From Mycobacterium decipiens (GTDB lineage: Bacteria; Actinomycetota; Actinomycetes; Mycobacteriales; Mycobacteriaceae): DNA of 64,000 nucleotides. The position numbers were made by a program, and so were the translations under genes. This document shows, one piece after another, positions 53,384 to 64,000 of this stretch (positions are counted from its first letter, which is position 1; every line of letters begins with the position of its first letter). The DNA is taken from assembly GCF_963853665.1 (NCBI RefSeq), contig NZ_OY970459.1, positions 4,092,001 through 4,156,000 of the forward strand, given 5' to 3'. The notes below the pieces were generated by a model that ran no database searches, was not told the origin of the DNA, and worked only from the letters and a program-made list of their open reading frames with translations.

Positions 53384-54220
53384 TCAGCCTTCGGTGGCTG
53401 AGAAGAACGCCGCTAGCAGGTTACCGATCTCGACTCCGCGCTCCTCCTGGCAAAAGTGCCCGACACCGCTGAGCCGGGTGATCTCGGCGCCGCCGAGGTC
53501 ACGCGACGCGCGCTCCATCGTTTTGGCGACATCCGGCAGGATCCGGTCCTCGGCCCCGTAAATGATCCGCGCTGGGACGTTGAGCTGTGGGAGGCCGGCT
53601 GCGATCCGTTTCATGCCGCCAACACTGAGACCTTTGGCTGTCGCGGCCAGCGCTCTGCGAGCTGCCAAATCGTGGAACGGTTCCTGGTAGGGCTCGAGCG
53701 CCGCACCGGTCATGCGGGACTTGTCCTCGACTCCGAGTCGCATCGAAAATCGAATCCCGCGTGGGCTGGTGATCCAACTGCGGGCAAGCGGAAGGGTGCA
53801 GAGCGCGACGAACGCCTTGACGGCCCACGAGAGTTCGGGGTAGAGCAAGGTGTTGAGCAACGCCAGATGCGTGATGCGCTCGCGGTTGTGCACCGCCCAG
53901 TGCACCCCGACCGGACCGCCGAGATCATGGACCCCCAAGGCGACCTTTCCCACCCCGCGCTCCGCCAGAAAACCGTCGAGGACTTCGTCATAGAAGCGAA
54001 AGCCGTAGTGCTGATCGGGCGGCTTTGCCGAGCCACCGAACCCCGGCAGGTCGAGCGCGATCACCCGGTTCCGCTGGGCGATCGGGGGCATCACGTCCCG
54101 CCACAGCCACGACGAGGTGGGCCAGCCGTGGAGCAGGAGCACCGCAGGCCCGTTGCCAAGCTCACGGAAGGTGAGGGTAAGGCCGTCGACCTCGACGCGT
54201 TGCAGCTGCGGTGCACTCAT
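53384..54220 (-). CDS. Alpha/beta hydrolase, haloalkane dehalogenase/epoxide hydrolase type
   Basis: 278 residues. Oxyanion motif HGWPTSSWLW (31-40), nucleophile position Asp99 in VHDLGGPVG, an acid in EDRILPD and His in GVGHFCQEE. Asp rather than Ser as nucleophile places it with haloalkane dehalogenases and epoxide hydrolases. The halide-stabilising residues cannot be set by eye, so the reaction is open. No signal peptide. Convergent with the NPM peptide gene, with 29 bp between stops. Confidence 0.82.
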   Translation of the reverse strand: MSAPQLQRVEVDGLTLTFRELGNGPAVLLLHGWPTSSWLWRDVMPPIAQRNRVIALDLPGFGGSAKPPDQHYGFRFYDEVLDGFLAERGVGKVALGVHDLGGPVGVHWAVHNRERITHLALLNTLLYPELSWAVKAFVALCTLPLARSWITSPRGIRFSMRLGVEDKSRMTGAALEPYQEPFHDLAARRALAATAKGLSVGGMKRIAAGLPQLNVPARIIYGAEDRILPDVAKTMERASRDLGGAEITRLSGVGHFCQEERGVEIGNLLAAFFSATEG

Positions 54221-54256
54221 CGCAAAGCGATCCTAGTTGCTTGCTCGCCCAAGGCC

Positions 54257-55180
54257 TCAGCCCCCTTGCAGCACTTTGGTTCCCGAGGTGGTGAGGAACG
54301 TTAGGAAACGGCGGGCGGCCGGAGCCAGCCGGCGTCCCTTGTGCCATACCGCTCCCACTTGCCTGCGCGCTGTGGGGTCGCGCAGGGCGATTTCGACCAG
54401 CCCTGGATAGTGGTGTGTCGCCCGGGGCAGCACGGCGACCCCCAAACCGGCCTGCACGAGCCCGCGCAGGGTCTCGTGCTCTTCGCCCTCGAGGGCCAGT
54501 TGCGGGACGAATCCGGCTTGTTGGCAAAGGGAATCGAACACGTGACGGAGGCTGTGTTGGGCGGTGAGCCCGACGAAGGTTTCGGTAGCCGCTTCCCGTA
54601 GGTCAACCGATGTTTGGGTAGCAAGGTGGTGGTCGGACGCGACGGTCAGGTAGAGCTGTTCTTCGCCCAGCACAAGCGATTCCAGCTGACTGTCGGTGGG
54701 TGGACACGGCGCGACGATCACGACATCGAGGTCACCGGCGCGCAGCTGGTCGAGCATCGCGGGCGCCCCGCCCTGTTTGAGCGTGAACGCGATGTCGGGA
54801 TACGCGGACAGAAACGCGCCGAGCAGCCGCGGTACGTCGCGGGGGCCGCGGCTATGCACGAAACCCAGTGCGATGCGGCCTCGGTCGGGATCGATGACCT
54901 CCTGGAGATCTTGCCGGGCGGCGCGCAGCTGATTGAGCGCCTGTCGCGCCGCGGGCAGGAATGCGCGACCGGCTTCGGTCGCGACGATCCCGCGTCCCGA
55001 AGGCTGCACCAGCGGGGCACCAATCGCCTCGGCGAGGCGGCGCATCACGGTGCTCACCGTCGGCTGCGGCATGGCCAGACGTTCGGCGGCGCGACGGACG
55101 TGCTGCTCGTCTAGGACCGTCACGGCGATGGCCAGCTCCGGACTGATCGCCCGCAACCATTCGAGATCTTGATCAAACAC
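54257..55180 (-). CDS. LysR-family transcriptional regulator
   Basis: 307 residues from GTG. N-terminal helix-turn-helix (about 12-70) with VRRAAERLAMPQPTVSTVMRRLAEAIG, then a periplasmic-binding-like effector domain from about residue 90 (GRIALGFVHSRGPRDVPRLLGAF). The longest frame begins 23 codons upstream but would overlap the divergent promoter. It faces the isocitrate-lyase-family gene across 84 bp, the classic layout for a LysR activator and its target. Confidence 0.88.
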   Translation of the reverse strand: MFDQDLEWLRAISPELAIAVTVLDEQHVRRAAERLAMPQPTVSTVMRRLAEAIGAPLVQPSGRGIVATEAGRAFLPAARQALNQLRAARQDLQEVIDPDRGRIALGFVHSRGPRDVPRLLGAFLSAYPDIAFTLKQGGAPAMLDQLRAGDLDVVIVAPCPPTDSQLESLVLGEEQLYLTVASDHHLATQTSVDLREAATETFVGLTAQHSLRHVFDSLCQQAGFVPQLALEGEEHETLRGLVQAGLGVAVLPRATHHYPGLVEIALRDPTARRQVGAVWHKGRRLAPAARRFLTFLTTSGTKVLQGG

Positions 55181-55264
55181 ATTAGAAAGTTTATTGGACT
55201 GATCAATCGGCGTGGGGAATCGTGGCGTCCGGAACAACCAACCAGACACCGAAAGACAACCGCC
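55181..55264. promoter_or_regulatory. Divergent LysR/isocitrate-lyase-family promoter region
   Basis: The 84-bp spacer and the first LysR codons contain GATCAA twice (55171 and 55201 neighbourhood) with ATTAGAAAGTTTATTGG between, an AT-rich stretch unusual for this genome. Spaced TGATCA-like elements are plausible LysR half-sites. Confidence 0.4.
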
Positions 55265-56164
55265 ATGAACAACACCGGACCGAACCGGTCAGTCAAAGCG
55301 ATGCTGCAGGACGGTGAGTTCATCACCGCCCCAGGCGTTTTCGATCTAGTCTCAGCCAAGATCGCCGATCGCACCACCGCGCAGGCGATCTACATGACCG
55401 GCTACGGAGTGTCGGCCTCCTACCTGGGCCAGCCCGACGCCGGCCTGGCCACCTACACCGACATGCTCGACCGCGCCGAAGCGATCGCTGCGGCCGTCGA
55501 CAAGCCGCTAATCGCCGACGCCGACACTGGGTACGGCGGGCTGCTCAACGTCGCGCACACCGTACGCGGCTACGAGCGCGCCGGCGTCTCGGTGATTCAG
55601 CTTGAAGACCAGCACTTCCCCAAGAAGTGCGGCCACACCCCCAACCGCCGTGTGATCCCCACCCAGGAGATGGTCAACAAGATCAAAGTCGCCTCGGACG
55701 CACGCTTGTCCGACGAATTTCTGATCCTCGCGCGCACCGACGCCCTGGCGTCACTGGGCCTCGACGAGGCCTTGCGACGCGGCGAGGCGTACGCCGATGC
55801 CGGCGCCGACATCCTGTTCATCGAGGCGCCGCAGTCCGAAGAGCAGATGCGCAAAATCGGTGCGGCGTTTGACGTCCCCCTACTGTCCAATCAGCTGCAC
55901 GGCGGCCTCACCCCGATCCTGGCGCCCGCGCAGCTACAGAAAATGGGATTCGCCGCGGCTATCTATCCCACGGCGGGGCTGTTCGCCGCAGCCCACGCCC
56001 TCACCGGCACCTATCGCGCCCTGGCGCTCGGACAGCCAGTCTCTGACCCGATGTGTGTCTTCGACGACTTCGTTGAAATGATCGGGTTTCCCAAGATCTG
56101 GGAATTCGAGAGCCGGTACGCAGACCAGCTGGCCGACCAAACGCCATTACCCGGCCACGGCTAG
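55265..56164 (+). CDS. Isocitrate lyase/PEP mutase superfamily protein (C-C lyase)
   Basis: 299 residues from an ATG; an in-frame ATG 32 codons upstream lies inside the regulator and is rejected. TIM-barrel with metal motif DADTGYGG (85-92), QLEDQ (112-116) and KKCGH (120-124), whose Cys122 is the general acid/base of the methylisocitrate/dimethylmalate lyase branch. Likely cleaves a 2-hydroxy- or 2-methyl-tricarboxylate-type substrate into pyruvate or glyoxylate plus another acid. Oxaloacetate decarboxylase activity is an alternative. Probably regulated by the divergent LysR gene. Confidence 0.85.
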
Positions 56165-56538
56165 CCGGCCGTTGGCCTCGAGGTAGCAACGGGCGATCTC
56201 GCGCAAGCGGTCTCGTCCGAAGCTGGGGTGCCACGTTCAGAACCGTTGGAGAACCAGGGCGATTCAGTCGCCCGGACCGGCCGGTGCGCGCCTGGGAGCC
56301 CAGATACGGGTGCGCATCACGTCGATCTTGCACCCCCCTTGGAAAAGCGACGACCGTGAGCGCGGTGCCCAGCGGGGGATTCGTGTGTAGGGCGGGGCTG
56401 GGCGCGACTCGCGAGGCAACGCCCGCGTGCAGTGCCCCGCCAGCCGACTCGGCGTACTACTCGAAGGCGTGCCGGACTCGTGCAATTATGGGCATCGTCT
56501 CATCTTCCGATGGTCAGTGGCCGGGTGGGAGGACCACG
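56165..56538. other. 374-bp spacer before the PE_PGRS-phosphodiesterase gene
   Basis: No gene is supported. On the minus strand the last 90 bases read [18 protein letters not shown] before a stop, possibly a relic of a longer protein, but too short to assign. The spacer ends in GGGAGG, the ribosome binding site of the PE gene. Confidence 0.35.
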
Positions 56539-58530
56539 ATGGCGCAGCTGATAGCCGCACCGGACCTGTTGATGACCGCGACGGCAGATGTGGCGGCCAT
56601 CGGCTCCTCGGTCAGGGCGGCGAACCTGGCGGTGTTGGCTCCGACTGGCACGTTGCTGGCTGCTGCTGGTGATGAAGTATCTGCGGCGATTGCCTCGCTG
56701 TTTTCCGGTCACGCCGAGGAATATCAGGCGGTCAGTGCGCAGGTGGCGGCGTTTCATGGGCGATTTGTGCAGGCGTTGAGTGCCGCCAGCGGGGCGTATG
56801 CGGCCGCGGAGGCGGCCAATGCCAACCCGCTGGGGACGCTGGCCGACGACGTTTTGGGTGTGATCAATGCGCCGACGAACTTTTTGTTGGGGCGTCCGGT
56901 GATTGGTGACGGGGCCAACGGCGTGCCCGGCACTGGGCAAGCGGGTGGGGACGGCGGGATTCTGTGGGGCAATGGCGGCACGGGCGGGTCAGGTGGGCCG
57001 GGTCAGATGGGAGGGCGCGGCGGCAATGCCGGGTTGATCGGTAATGGTGGACTCGGCGGGGCCGGCGGTATCCGAGGCGGGACCGGCGGCACCGGCGGCA
57101 CGGGCGGGTGGTTGCTGGGCAATGGCGGGGTCGGCGGCACCGGGGGTGTCGGCTTAGGCAGCATCCCCGCTGGGACCGGTGGGATCGGCGGCGCCACATT
57201 GTCGTTGTTCGGCGCCCCGGGCGCGGCCGGCCCGGCCGGGACTTATTACGCAAACGTGATGCAGGCGACTCCCGAGCAGGCCGCCCTGCTGATCTTGACG
57301 ACACCGGATGCGAATTTCCTGTTGATCGGCACCGACGGCACGAATCTGAGCAGAATCCTGGCCGACCCGGGTGGCACCCCGAACTTCCACGAACTGATGG
57401 CGCAAAGCGTCACCTCCGCGTCGACGATCGTCGGGCACACCACCATCTCCAACCCCTCGTGGACGACGATTCAGACCGGTGTGTCGAGCGAGACGGCCGG
57501 GGTGACCAACAACGTCTTCACCCCGTGGACGTATGACACATGGCCGACGGTGTACAACTTCCTTGAGAACACCTATGGCGACCAAGTCAACACCACGGTC
57601 ATCGCTAACGGGGAGGGCACCGTTAGCGGCATCAACACCCGAATCGCCGGCGCCGGCTCGAATCCCGCCGACAACATCGAATTCGTCCCGCAGGTCGCGG
57701 GCGACACGGACTGGATAGCGACACAGAATCTGGTCGGCGAGAAGACCCAGGCCGCAATTCTGGCCGCCGATCCCAACAAAGGCAATCTCATCTTCGCGTC
57801 CTTCGCAGGTGTCGATAACGTCGGGCATCAATACGGCGGTGATTCGCCGCAGTACGCGCTGGCGCTTCGGAACATGGACTACAACCTCGGCTCCCAAACC
57901 AATGGTGGCGGCCTGATGGGAGCGATAGCAACCTGGGAGGCCAACCCCGCCAACATGGGTGAGGAATGGACCGTGCTCGTGGTCACCGACCATGGTCAAG
58001 TAGGGCCCGCCCAGCTCGGTGGTATCACTCACGGCTTCCAATCTCCCCTGGAGACAGCGACATTCCTGATTTTCGATCAGGCCGGCAATGATATGCAGGA
58101 CGGGTTTATCAACAACTCGTGGCAGACCGTGAGTACGACGCCGACGATTATGGATCAATTCGGCATTGCGCCGCTGCCGTATATGCAGGGTGCGCCCCTG
58201 ACGTCGCCCAGCTTTGATGGCACCTATGTTGATCCCGGCGCCAACCTGTACAGCGTGCTCAGCGCCGATTTCGCCGCACAAGGTTATCCCGATATCGCGA
58301 CCAACCTGACTCTGGCATCGCGGACGATCGTGGCCACGATTCCCTACCTGGTGTACGAGCAGATAGACAGTATCGTCGATTTGGTGCCCAGTTTCTTACA
58401 GGTGCCGGTCTCATGGATCGGCGCCGGCATCTACCAGTCGGTTAATATCCCCGCACAGATCTTTATCCGGTTCACCGGCGTGACCGGCAACCAAATCATC
58501 CCGCCGGTACTCAACCCATTCCTAACCTAG
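56539..58530 (+). CDS. PE_PGRS protein fused to an alkaline-phosphatase-superfamily phosphodiesterase
   Basis: 663 residues. PE domain 1 to about 98 ([20 protein letters not shown]...). Short PGRS section about 125-235. From about 236 a type I phosphodiesterase/nucleotide pyrophosphatase-like domain. Visible metal-site motifs are LIGTDGTN (Asp266), Ser304 in [12 protein letters not shown] at the nucleophile position, VDNVGHQYG (Asp426, His430), VVTDHGQ (Asp484, His485) and His498 in THGF. The set matches the two-zinc core. A hydrophobic C-terminal stretch follows about residue 590. The PE part should direct ESX-5 export, making this a surface or secreted phosphodiester hydrolase. Substrate unknown. 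Confidence 0.85.
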
Positions 58531-59271: not shown

Positions 59272-60099
59272 ATGTCATTCCTAACGACAGTGCCTGAAGA
59301 GTTGACGGCGGCGGCCGCACAGCTCGGGACCATCGGGGCAGCGATGGCAGCCCAGAACGCTGCCGCGGCGGCGCCCACCACGGCCATCGCTCCGGCGGCC
59401 CTCGATGAAGTATCCGCGTTGCAGGCGGCCCTCTTCACCGCGTATGGCACCTTCTACCAGCAGGTCAGCGCCGAAGCTCAGGCCATGCACGACATGTTTG
59501 TCAACACCCTGGGGTTCAGCGCCGGTACCTACGGCGTAACGGAGTCGCTCAACTCAACCGCGGCCGCTTCGCCCTTCGCGGGCCTCATGTCGGGTGCCAG
59601 CGGCCTGATCGACGCGTCGGCCTCGGTCATCCCGGACGAGTTCTCGGGTGGCATTGCCAACATTGCCAACATCGGAGCCGGGAACTGGGCCTCCGGCGCG
59701 TCCTGCCTGATCGGCCTCTGTGGCGGCGGTCTACTTCCCGCCGAGGAAGCCGCTGAGGCCGCGGCCGAGGGAGCCGGCCTGGGAGCGCTCGGGGCCGCCG
59801 AGGCGGCCATCGGAGCCGAGGCGGCCCTGGGCGCTCCGATCGCGGCCGGCCTGGGCGGGGCATCCGCGGTCGGCATGTTGTCGGTGCCACCCAGCTGGGC
59901 CGGACAGGCCACCCTGGTGTCGAGCACCAGCACGCTATCGGGCGCGGGCTGGACCGCCGCCGCACCACACGGGGCCTCGGGAACATTCCTTCCCGCCGGG
60001 ATGCCGGGGGCGGCCACGGCGGCACGCAACAGCGCCGGCTTCGGTGCGCCGCGCTACGGCGTCAAACCGATCGTCATGCCCAAGCCGGCGACGGTCTAG
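59272..60099 (+). CDS. PE8: PE family protein PE8
   Basis: 275 residues, the length of M. tuberculosis PE8 (Rv1040c), from an ATG with GAGGAG upstream. PE domain 1 to about 100 (MSFLTTVPEELTAAAAQLG... with YxxxS/E near its end). The C-terminal 175 residues are Ala/Gly-rich and end in SVPPSW, then PRYGVKPIVMPKP. In M. tuberculosis PE8 pairs with PPE15 and the EspG5 chaperone for ESX-5 export. The pair is co-transcribed here, 75 bp apart. Confidence 0.93.
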   Translation: MSFLTTVPEELTAAAAQLGTIGAAMAAQNAAAAAPTTAIAPAALDEVSALQAALFTAYGTFYQQVSAEAQAMHDMFVNTLGFSAGTYGVTESLNSTAAASPFAGLMSGASGLIDASASVIPDEFSGGIANIANIGAGNWASGASCLIGLCGGGLLPAEEAAEAAAEGAGLGALGAAEAAIGAEAALGAPIAAGLGGASAVGMLSVPPSWAGQATLVSSTSTLSGAGWTAAAPHGASGTFLPAGMPGAATAARNSAGFGAPRYGVKPIVMPKPATV

Positions 60100-60174
60100 G
60101 GAGCAGACGCCGACGCGGTCGCCCAATCAACAACGAAATTCAGCCAATAGAACTCTAAAGAACGGGATACAACA

Positions 60175-61365
60175 ATGGATTTCGGAGCTTTGCCCCCTGA
60201 GATCAACTCCGCACGGATGTACGCCGGCGCAGGTCCGGCGCCGATGCTGTCCGCCGCTGCGGCGTGGAACGGCCTGGCTGCCGAGTTGAGCACGACAGCG
60301 ACCTCCTACGAGTCGGTGATCACCCGGCTGACCACCGAGTCTTGGATGGGTCCGGCGTCGCTGTCGATGGTTGCCGCGGCCCAGCCCTATCTGGCCTGGT
60401 TGGCCTACACCGCCGAATCCGCGGCGCACGCGGGCGGGCAGGCCATGGCATCGGCGGCCGCCTACGAAGCGGCGTTTGCGATGACGGTGCCCCCGGCGGA
60501 GGTCGCCGCCAACAGGGCGATGCTGGCGGCACTGGTGGCGACGAACATCCTGGGTCAGAACACCCCGGCAATCATGGCCAACGAGGCCCTCTATGCCGAG
60601 ATGTGGGCGCAGGACGCGATGGCGATGTATGGCTACGCCGCCTCCTCCGCGGCGGCCGGGACGCTGAGCCCGCTGACCACACCGGCGCAGACCACCAACC
60701 CGGGCGGGCTGGCCCTCCAGGCCGCGGCGGTGGGCCAAGCGGCCACCGCCGGCACCGCCCAGCAGGTTGGTCTGGAAAGCCTGATCACCAGCCTGCCCAA
60801 CGCGATCATGGGTCTCGCCTCCCCGGTGACATCACTTGCCGATGCGACCGGGCTGACCGGAGTGGTGAAGAGCATCGACGAGTTTCTCGCGATTCCGTTC
60901 GTGGGGAACATTGTCAACAGCAGCATCAACACCGCGGCCTGGTTTGTCATGGCCGCCATACCCACCGCGATATTCCTCGGAAACACCGTGGGCGCCGCCG
61001 CGCCGGCGGCCGTCGTCGAGGGCGCCGCCGAGGGTGCGCTGGGCGCGGCCGGTGCGGCCGCCGCGGCGGGAGCGGGGTTGGCCGACGCCGTCGCGCCGGC
61101 GGGCCTCGGCGCCAGTTTGGGCGAGGCCGCCCTGGTCGGCAGCCTGTCGGTGCCGGCCAGCTGGTCGTCGGCCACCCCCGCGGTAACCGTTGGCGCCACG
61201 GCTGCGGAGGGTAGCGGTTGGACCGTCGCTGCCGAGGAGGCCGGGCCGGTCACCGGAGTGGCAGGAATGCCGGGAATGGCCGCGGCCGCTAAGGGTGCCG
61301 GCGCCTACGCCGGACCGCGGTACGGATTCAAACCCATCGTTATGCCAAAACAGGTCGTCGTGTAA
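60175..61365 (+). CDS. PPE15: PPE family protein PPE15 (SVP subgroup)
   Basis: 396 residues. PPE domain 1 to about 180 ([18 protein letters not shown]...), with WxG-like SWMGPAS. The C-terminal part has GSLSVPASW, the GxxSVPxxW motif, and ends [12 protein letters not shown]. Partner of PE8; the heterodimer is a substrate of ESX-5. Followed 146 bp later by the esx genes. Confidence 0.93.
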
Positions 61366-61499
61366 TTGGGAAAAAGGGGGGACATGTCACTCGTTTGAGG
61401 CCAGCAATTAACCGATTAGTCGTAACCTATCCGTAATGCGGCTACCACCGCGCCGATCACAACCGCTACAACGTCAACGACGTGAATACTTCGAGATAA

Positions 61500-61808
<309 letters not shown>

Positions 61809-61858
61809 CAGCGAAAACCGCTGCTGCCCAACAGCTTCAACTCAGGAGGACAAAACCT

Positions 61859-62143
61859 ATGACCATCAACTATCAGTTCGGCGATGTTGACGCCCACGGT
61901 GCCATGATCCGGGCACAGGCCGCATCGTTGGAGGCCGAGCACCAGGCCATCGTTCGCGATGTCCTTGCGGCTGGTGACTTTTGGGGCGGCGCCGGTTCGG
62001 TGGCCTGCCAGGAGTTCATCACCCAGTTGGGCCGCAACTTCCAGGTGATCTACGAGCAGGCCAACGCCCACGGCCAAAAGGTGCAGGCGGCCGGCAGCAA
62101 CATGGCGCAAACCGACAGCGCTGTCGGCTCCAGTTGGGCCTAA
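61859..62143 (+). CDS. esxI: EsxI/Mtb9.9-type WXG100 protein
   Basis: 94 residues with N-terminus MTINYQFGDVDAHG, WGG motif in GDFWGGAGS and C-terminal SSWA. The Mtb9.9 family (EsxI, L, N, O, V) is meant. Partner of the upstream QILSS protein, 50 bp downstream with an AGGAGG site. A strong hairpin follows. Confidence 0.93.
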   Translation: MTINYQFGDVDAHGAMIRAQAASLEAEHQAIVRDVLAAGDFWGGAGSVACQEFITQLGRNFQVIYEQANAHGQKVQAAGSNMAQTDSAVGSSWA

Positions 62144-62197: not shown

Positions 62198-62295
62198 CTC
62201 TCTGAGCGGAACCAAATAGACTCACATTTGAAAATCATATGAATCCCGTGACAGCTGCATGTGCGCTTGCAGAGGAGTTGAGAGGATACGGGAAT

Positions 62296-63069
62296 ATGAC
62301 GGCAATGTCGGGGTATGCGCGCAGTCAACGTCCGCGCCAAGCCATCCTGGGGCAGCTGCCCCGGATTCATCGCGCGGATGGATCACCGATCCGGGTATTG
62401 CTGGTCGACGACGAACCAGCGCTGACCAACCTAGTCAAGATGGCACTGCACTACGAAGGCTGGGAAGTCGAAGTCGCCCACGACGGTCGAGAGGCCATCG
62501 CCAAGTTCGACAAGGTCGGCCCCGACGTGCTGGTCCTGGACATCATGCTGCCCGACGTCGACGGGTTGGAAATTCTGCAACGGGTCCGAGAATCCGAGAC
62601 CTACACGCCGACGCTGTTCCTGACCGCGCGCGACTCCGTCATGGACCGGGTCACCGGTCTGACCGCGGGCGCCGACGACTACATGACAAAGCCGTTCAGC
62701 CTCGAAGAGCTGGTCGCCCGGTTGCGCGGATTGCTGCGTCGCTCCAGCCATCTGGAAAAGCCCGCCGATGAGTCGCTCCGAGTCGGAGAACTCAGGCTGG
62801 ACGCGGCCAGCCGGGAAGTCACGCGCGACGGTACGCAGATCTCGCTCTCGTCGACCGAGTTCGAACTGCTTCGCTTCCTGATGCGCAATCCGCGGCGCGC
62901 ATTGAGCCGCACCGAGATCCTCGACCGGGTGTGGAACTACGACTTCGCGGGACGCACCAGCATTGTTGACCTGTACATCTCCTACCTGAGGAAGAAGATC
63001 GACTCCGACCGGGAGCCGATGATTCACACGGTCCGCGGCATTGGTTACATGCTGCGACCGCCGGAATGA
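62296..63069 (+). CDS. trcR: Response regulator TrcR
   Basis: 257 residues, equal to M. tuberculosis TrcR, from an ATG with GAGAGGA upstream. Receiver domain about 32-145: acidic pocket DDE (38-40), phospho-acceptor Asp82 in LDIMLPD, Thr110 and Lys132. The OmpR-type winged helix about 160-255 ends RGIGYMLRPPE. It binds AT-rich promoter DNA; in M. tuberculosis it activates itself and represses Rv1057. Cotranscribed with trcS, 7 bp downstream. Confidence 0.94.
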   Translation: MTAMSGYARSQRPRQAILGQLPRIHRADGSPIRVLLVDDEPALTNLVKMALHYEGWEVEVAHDGREAIAKFDKVGPDVLVLDIMLPDVDGLEILQRVRESETYTPTLFLTARDSVMDRVTGLTAGADDYMTKPFSLEELVARLRGLLRRSSHLEKPADESLRVGELRLDAASREVTRDGTQISLSSTEFELLRFLMRNPRRALSRTEILDRVWNYDFAGRTSIVDLYISYLRKKIDSDREPMIHTVRGIGYMLRPPE

Positions 63070-63076
63070 GCCGGGA

Positions 63077-64000
63077 ATGACCCCGGACCGAAGCGCTCGG
63101 TCCAGACGAATCCCCTGGTGGCGACCCCGTTCGTTGCGCCAGCAGTTGTTATTGGGCGTCCTGGCGGTCGTGACCGTTGTGTTGGTGGCCGTCGGTTTCG
63201 TCTCGGTGCTGAGCCTGAGCGGCTATGTCACCGCGATGAACGACGCCGAGCTCGCCGAATCCCTGCACGCGTTGAACCACGCCTACGCCAGGTACCGCAC
63301 CGGCGAGCAGGCAGAAACACGTACCGGCAACCTGCCCGTGTCCCAGGCGGTGCTGGAGTTCACCGGACAGACGCCCGGAAACCTCATTGCCGTGCTGCAC
63401 GACGGCGTGGTGATCGGATCGGCCGTCTTCACCGAAGACGGAGCACGGCCCGCTCCGCCCGACGTCATCCGCGCGATCGAGGCACGGCGGTGGACCGACA
63501 GCTCACCACACATCGAGAACCTGGGCAGCCTGGGCTCCTACCAGGTTGACAGTAGCGCCAATGGATCCGACCGACTGATCGTCGGCGTATCGCTGGGTCT
63601 GGCTGACGAGATCATCGCCCGCAAGAAGGTCACCACCATGGCGCTTGTCGGGGCCGCGTTGGTGATCACCGCGGCACTGACGGTTTGGGTGGTGGGCTAC
63701 GCGCTGCGCCCACTGCGCCGGGTCGCCGCCACCGCCGCGGAGGTCGCCACGATGCCGCTTACCGGAGACGACCACCAGATCAGCGTGCGAGTGCGGCCGC
63801 AGGACACCGACCCGGATAACGAAGTCGGCATCGTCGGGCACACACTGAATCGCTTGTTGGACAACGTGGATAGTGCGCTGGCGCATCGCGTCGACTCCGA
63901 CATGCGGATGCGGCAATTCATCACCGACGCCAGCCACGAGCTGCGTACTCCGCTCGCGGCAATTCAGGGCTATGCCGAACTGACTCGTCAGGACAGTTCG
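63077..64000 (+). CDS. trcS: Sensor histidine kinase TrcS, truncated by window end
   Basis: 308 codons are seen; full M. tuberculosis TrcS has about 509. TM helix 1 (LLLGVLAVVTVVLVAVGFVSVL-like, about 26-46), a 140-residue extracytoplasmic sensor, TM helix 2 (VGAALVITAALTVWVVGYAL, about 190-212), HAMP, and the H-box SHELRTPLAAI with His287, the reported phosphorylation site in M. tuberculosis TrcS. The ATP-binding domain lies beyond the window. Confidence 0.93.
   Translation, partial: MTPDRSARSRRIPWWRPRSLRQQLLLGVLAVVTVVLVAVGFVSVLSLSGYVTAMNDAELAESLHALNHAYARYRTGEQAETRTGNLPVSQAVLEFTGQTPGNLIAVLHDGVVIGSAVFTEDGARPAPPDVIRAIEARRWTDSSPHIENLGSLGSYQVDSSANGSDRLIVGVSLGLADEIIARKKVTTMALVGAALVITAALTVWVVGYALRPLRRVAATAAEVATMPLTGDDHQISVRVRPQDTDPDNEVGIVGHTLNRLLDNVDSALAHRVDSDMRMRQFITDASHELRTPLAAIQGYAELTRQDSS

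Follow-up and report, generated by a model that had tools for sequence, protein, structure and literature searches.

A PE_PGRS protein of Mycobacterium decipiens with a predicted alkaline-phosphatase-superfamily phosphoesterase domain, and its relatives with a signal peptide

The window analyzed here (64,000 nucleotides of the Mycobacterium decipiens genome, contig NZ_OY970459.1, positions 4,092,001 to 4,156,000) has an open reading frame (ORF) at 56539-58530 (+) in which a PE_PGRS module precedes a domain resembling a phosphoesterase, and this raises the question of what such an enzyme does and how it came to be carried by that module. The ORF starts with an ATG at 56539, its stop codon ends at 58530, and it encodes 663 amino acids. 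The protein is probably a two-metal phosphoesterase, with phosphodiesters as its likeliest substrates and a type VII system (likeliest ESX-5) as its export route, that is held at the surface and was derived by one swap to a PE_PGRS module. The architecture, the fold class, the conserved site, a single nested clade of the PE forms and the mutual exclusion of the two export forms in 26 genomes were each computed directly.

Three Pfam domains lie on the protein, all above their cut-offs: PE (PF00934, residues 4-94, 106 bits against a cut-off of 22), PGRS (PF21526, residues 122-192, 41.1 bits against 27) and Phosphodiest (PF01663, residues 261-487, 51.6 bits against a curated cut-off of 23). NCBIfam returns the LipY equivalog alone, on the PE part and below cut-off. 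The conserved site was read from alignment A2, which holds the window copy and 61 of 80 named loci (62 rows); these 80, of 107 relatives, came from scanning a named collection with two exact peptide patterns. A second alignment, A3, combines the window copy with 20 further full-length rows of the PE type and 11 domains of the signal-peptide type. The features of the gene are as follows.

56527-56532 (+): ribosome-binding-like GGGAGG, 6 nt 5' of the ATG, read from the sequence
56539-58530 (+): whole gene, PE_PGRS-phosphoesterase fusion of 663 aa, from the ORF and Pfam
56539-56823 (+): PE domain, residues 1-95, on the PF00934 match
56797-56811 (+): YAAAE, residues 87-91, a YxxxD/E type VII secretion motif read from the sequence, with the letters given for PecA and LipY in PMC6819658
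56890-56904 (+): GRPVI, residues 118-122, a variant of the GRPLI linker motif (sequence and A3; motif from PMC9436101)
56902-57228 (+): short PGRS, about residues 122-230, on the PF21526 match, with its end set by eye
57241-58233 (+): alkaline-phosphatase-superfamily catalytic domain and lead-in, residues 235-565, on PF01663, the AlphaFold (AF2) model and fold searches
57334-57336 (+): Asp266, predicted metal ligand (TDG), 62/62 rows
57448-57450 (+): Ser304, predicted nucleophile (SNPSW), 62/62 rows, at the start of model helix 70-79 (residues 304-313)
57511-57513 (+): Asn325, 62/62 rows, 21 residues past the nucleophile, the spacing of the substrate-binding Asn in the Xanthomonas enzyme discussed below
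57814-57828 (+): Asp426 and His430, predicted metal ligands (DxxxH), 62/62 rows
57988-57993 (+): Asp484-His485, predicted metal ligands (TDHG), 62/62 rows
58030-58032 (+): His498, predicted metal ligand (HGF), 62/62 rows
58234-58527 (+): C-terminal tail, residues 566-663, conserved and predicted to contain two long helices, from the alignments and the model

D266, S304, N325, D426, H430, D484, H485 and H498 are invariant in all 62 rows of A2, and because of this the seven predicted metal and nucleophile residues among them are not a chance pattern. These seven had been numbered correctly in the initial annotation, which described a PE domain and a short PGRS fused to a complete alkaline-phosphatase-superfamily domain. 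The architecture and the completeness of the superfamily metal site bear this out, whereas the last third of PF01663 goes unmatched; the PF01663 search that it had proposed for the C-terminal part does match above cut-off, and the superfamily placement is upheld by the fold. AF2 gives a confident alkaline-phosphatase-superfamily fold for the catalytic domain, confirmed by fold searches, and PF01663 matches 62/62 A2 rows at E <= 0.01. As read from the sequence, the domain has the predicted two-metal ligand set of the superfamily and a nucleophile of its Ser/Thr/Cys class. With the roles usual in the superfamily, Ser304 would attack the phosphorus, two metals would sit on the Asp and His residues 266, 426, 430, 484, 485 and 498, and Asn325 would help to bind the phosphoryl group.

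The likeliest substrates are phosphodiesters. By sequence profile, nucleotide pyrophosphatases/phosphodiesterases (NPP/ENPP) are found at 5.1e-12, well ahead of the alkaline phosphatase PafA at 2.1e-4, and both Xanthomonas NPP (PDB 2GSN) and the mammalian ENPPs match the domain in sequence and in fold. Several observations weigh against a diesterase. The nucleophile position is Ser in 62/62 rows, and Thr is the usual nucleophile in NPPs. The PF01663 match covers model positions 2-221 of 342. In the profile comparison with Xanthomonas NPP, the block of D426, H430, D484 and H485 scores 42 bits, the first block 3.9 and the last -1.9 bits. Foldseek ranks a sulfamidase first (1.0e-8), virtually tied with Xanthomonas NPP (1.1e-8), and by fold the SPAP/PafA monoesterases rank ahead of the NPPs; because of these two rankings the diesterase call is not firm.

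The ranking by fold would suit a surface monoesterase, an alkaline phosphatase of the PafA/SPAP type exported in the same way and stripping phosphate from monoesters. We consider this unlikely, since the sequence profile orders the two families the other way. Between Ser304 and Asp426 there is also no apparent Lys/Arg pair of the PafA kind (by sequence reading rather than superposition), and the stretch from the nucleophile to the second metal block is about 100 residues longer in PafA, where this long insert holds K162 and R164 (an estimate, with T79 taken from the 5too title).

The matches to PF01663 and to ENPP/NPP in sequence and fold, together with the predicted surface position, could also indicate a nucleotide-specific ecto-NPP, acting like ENPP1 on extracellular or host nucleotides or on cyclic dinucleotides. 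This reading is less likely than the monoesterase. The DHG Asp and the last metal His are 14 residues apart in the window protein and about 105 in Xanthomonas NPP (a weak alignment), so that much of the frame of the NPP pocket is missing. A host substrate is also unlikely to be ancestral, since 30 of the 47 lower-tier loci described below have records titled Mycolicibacterium, a genus whose species are mostly environmental. Slightly less likely again is the compound view of an ESX-5-delivered surface ecto-phosphodiesterase that cleaves extracellular (di)nucleotides, a counterpart of ENPP1 produced by one-time re-addressing of a signal-peptide enzyme. The label of nucleotide pyrophosphatase/phosphodiesterase that had been given to the domain is right as to superfamily and too specific as to NPP, given the Ser nucleophile (where Xanthomonas NPP and the ENPPs have Thr), the partial PF01663 match and the far shorter stretch leading up to the final metal His; the window protein further differs from these enzymes by its added helical tail.

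A sulfatase-like enzyme with formylglycine formed from Ser304 was tried as a candidate. Sulfamidase leads the Foldseek list with many sulfatases after it, the sequence profile also matches sulfatases (4.2e-7), and PF00884 matches 33 of 62 relatives at E <= 0.01 (best 2.9e-9) with the window's own domain unmatched. SNPSW resembles [CS]xPxR, the type I sulfatase motif. Despite these fold and partial sequence matches the reading was rejected, as the motif Arg is replaced by Trp308 in 62/62 rows and position 304 is Ser and never Cys, which makes it extremely improbable.

The tail has about 100 residues, with AF2 helices at 586-615 and 618-645. These were examined for a role as membrane anchor, and their hydrophobicity is moderate (mean Kyte-Doolittle value about 0.85). 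The tail is conserved across the aligned PE-type and signal-peptide-type mycobacterial copies, and the protein at L132, from another genus of the family, stops shortly past the catalytic domain. The tail was thus probably added before the PE fusion took place.

The gene has a paralogue at 2857942-2859183 (-) whose C-terminal part is 89% identical to that of the window copy. In this genome (5.30 Mb) there are 80 PE-family matches and four PF01663 matches, and two of the four are PE_PGRS fusions, namely these two copies. The paralogue, the relatives without PE, the tail and the nested PE clade are new in this analysis. Residues 346-435 (57574-57843) of the window copy may be a mosaic: they are 79% identical to the paralogue and 86-89% to L035, L042, L057 and L139, which belong to a different clade, while the flanks are 91-95% identical to the paralogue; the signal is weaker at the DNA level. 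An insertion lies within this segment in 9 of 36 PE-type rows, the window included (by pattern).

Relatives fall into two tiers. The C-terminal part was searched against 297 genomes of the genus, M. decipiens included, with up to six candidates scored per genome, and 129 genomes have a match. Copies at least 68% identical form the upper tier, with 40 copies (68-100%) in 26 of the 297 genomes, counted over L003-L030 and L151-L163 with L003 and L005 as one copy; the other matches listed are at most 55% identical. PE is in the same frame in 37 of the 40, the other three run off contig ends, and none is closed without PE. Among the 80 named loci, 33 are at 65-80% identity and 47 at 40-52%. The upper 33 come from M. 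gordonae, asiaticum, gastri, szulgai, simulans, simiae, innocens, persicum, attenuatum, ostraviense and intermedium as well as unnamed mycobacteria, and the familiar ones among the named species are slow growers. PE is present in 28 of these 33, and L038, L045, L046, L053 and L055 run off the contig end. Titles naming M. tuberculosis, M. marinum or M. kansasii do not occur among the 80 of 107 relatives, and no search by name was made.

The lower-tier relatives (L068-L114 and others) share the catalytic domain and the same kind of tail, at 45-55% identity to the window copy in A2, and have a signal peptide and a Ser/Asp/Ala-rich linker where the window protein has PE_PGRS. A search with our own PE profile (E 1e-3), with PPE fronts looked for by eye only, found PE in none of the 48 catalytic frames of the 47 loci L068-L114, in none of 19 frames of the distant loci L125-L135 and in none of five of L145-L149. 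A simple rule finds a signal-peptide-like start in 45 of the 47, with L081 (a contig end) and L099 failing; the linker after it was seen by eye in part of the loci. Distant copies, searched with up to six candidates scored per genome, have signal-peptide-like starts by eye; some genomes of the genus carry them in tandem groups, and further ones come from other genera within the family and the order. L125, L126, L128 and L129 each have three distant signal-peptide-form copies in a stretch of 15-16 kb. Two lower-tier relatives of about 1200 aa (L145:1956-5570 and L146:1173-4772) have the domain followed by a PF04185 phosphoesterase domain; this fusion in two genomes fits stepwise phosphate release from organic esters and is no proof of it.

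A maximum-likelihood tree was built from 90 rows, and in it all 36 rows of the PE type fall into a single clade (100/100); four of these, from among the five named loci that run off the contig end, are labelled PE by position only. Twelve signal-peptide-type rows are sister to this clade, the other 38 lie outside, and there are four outgroup rows. A profile of the signal-peptide-type domain was run on the 26 genomes that carry the PE type, every candidate being scored, and gave 40 matches, all at the upper-tier places; none of the 26 genomes has both forms. Since the PE clade is single and nested among signal-peptide rows, and no genome has both, the simplest account is that a PE_PGRS module once took the place of the signal peptide and linker, that the gene was then duplicated, to as many as three copies per genome, and that the older form was lost or was absent. 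Two points count against this account: the nesting requires a root outside the PE clade, as the four outgroup rows suggest, and the outgroup branches are long; and a later transfer of the PE form between species is possible. It has been proposed that enzymatic domains may have joined the type VII substrates through recombination with pe/ppe genes (PMC7028111), and the phosphoesterase supports this idea for a new catalytic class in which both states survive.

The PE module itself varies. In the subclade of L006, L009, L040 and L057 the PE domain (about 100 N-terminal residues) differs, while the GRPLI linker, the PGRS and the catalytic domain are alike, which suggests a second exchange of the PE module. 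In L040 the PGRS is strongly shortened.

The window copy was compared with 13 relatives, namely the paralogue and 12 other loci, for the ratio of nonsynonymous to synonymous substitution rates (dN/dS). The median is 0.32 in the catalytic domain (range 0.20-0.45), 0.29 in the tail and 0.33 in PE; against the paralogue alone the values are 0.40, 0.22 and 0.53. The catalytic-domain value of 0.32 therefore indicates purifying selection. PE_PGRS proteins are often discussed as antigens in the portions of the literature available, and a dead enzyme serving only as a surface antigen would fit that role, yet we hold it to be very unlikely: the predicted metal ligands and nucleophile are invariant in 62/62 rows, dN/dS is about 0.3, and the 40 copies in 26 genomes have no internal stops within the match. 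The catalytic domain is strongly acidic, with 5 K+R and 29 D+E in residues 250-565. An adaptation of charge to type VII export was considered and rejected, as the domains are similarly poor in K+R (median 6 in 27 PE-type and 7 in 35 signal-peptide-type rows).

In the proposed course of events, the ancestral enzyme would have carried a signal peptide for export and a linker that looks disordered, and this N-terminal part would have been swapped once for a PE_PGRS module in the ancestor of one mycobacterial group. The PE domain would then direct type VII export, most likely by ESX-5, and the short PGRS would hold the protein at the outer surface. The likeliest role is cleavage of diesters in the outer envelope or beyond the cell, releasing phosphate or an alcohol head group, and the use or remodelling of phosphodiesters beyond the inner membrane is the role we prefer.

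Near residues 7-9, where the PE family has its Pro-Glu, the window protein has Pro8-Asp9; most other full-length rows of A3 have Pro-Asp, and L036 and L061 have Pro-Glu. SGAYAAAE forms the end of the PE domain (residues 84-91), and most relatives have GRPLI where the window has GRPVI. Of the helix-turn-helix fold of the PE family, the full-length model predicts helices 6-42 and 46-92 with a predicted local distance difference test score (pLDDT) of 30-47, and this low value weighs against the overall proposal. The M. marinum surface protease PecA cuts PE_PGRS proteins, and mutations near or in YxxxD/E reduce or alter cleavage (PMC6819658); PGRS domains are proposed to be surface-retaining in general (PMC9436101). 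An analogous course would take the window protein out through ESX-5, with trimming near residue 90 and retention at the surface by its PGRS.

Downstream, 59272-62143 encodes a PE with a PPE-SVP end, a PPE-SVP protein and two small Esx-like genes (by eye), which resemble the ESX-5a set PE8-PPE15-esxJ-esxI. Next, at about 62240-64000, come a response regulator and the beginning of a sensor kinase (by eye). Upstream, 53384-56164 encodes an alpha/beta hydrolase and a LysR regulator (-), then a phosphoenolpyruvate (PEP) mutase/isocitrate lyase-like enzyme (+). Neighbors were compared over the window and 19 other PE-type loci with low-complexity masking on, listing families at four or more loci. No ORF family except the gene itself lies in at least four of the 20, the upstream genes included. 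The neighborhood therefore gives no substrate, which also counts against the proposed role.

LipY, PecA/PE_PGRS35, PE_PGRS11 and the PF08237 proteins likewise have PE or PE_PGRS before a catalytic domain, which belongs to a superfamily other than that of the window protein. LipY and PecA are reported ESX-5 substrates cut by PecA (PMC6819658). Ates notes that the LipY of one species belongs to the PE proteins and that of another species to the PPE proteins (PMC7028111). In the available part of a 2016 survey of 60 mycobacterial species (PMC4758615), twelve domain types are given for representative PE/PPE proteins, none of them a phosphodiesterase or of the alkaline phosphatase superfamily. For H37Rv, the available part of a review (PMC7550000) names nine PE_PGRS proteins whose C-terminal domain is larger, and the domains assigned there are phosphoglycerate mutase, aspartic proteinase-like, YncE-like and arginine-rich, with no phosphodiesterase. 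The word 'phosphodiesterase' is absent from the available text of PMC11939664, PMC9436101, PMC7550000, PMC11395111 and PMC7028111, and its sole mention in that of PMC10569470 concerns Rv1211. A PE/PPE protein with a phosphodiesterase is thus undescribed in the available portions of the literature searched, which comprised the text of open-licence papers.

With the window protein, the PE_PGRS-borne enzymes gain a new catalytic class. The family offers a natural comparison of one enzyme with two export routes in sister mycobacterial groups, the two forms not being found together in the 26 genomes. The signal-peptide relatives provide an easy handle on the substrate. The comparison makes testable both the role of PE_PGRS as a delivery and anchoring module and what the enzyme may gain from a move to the outer surface.
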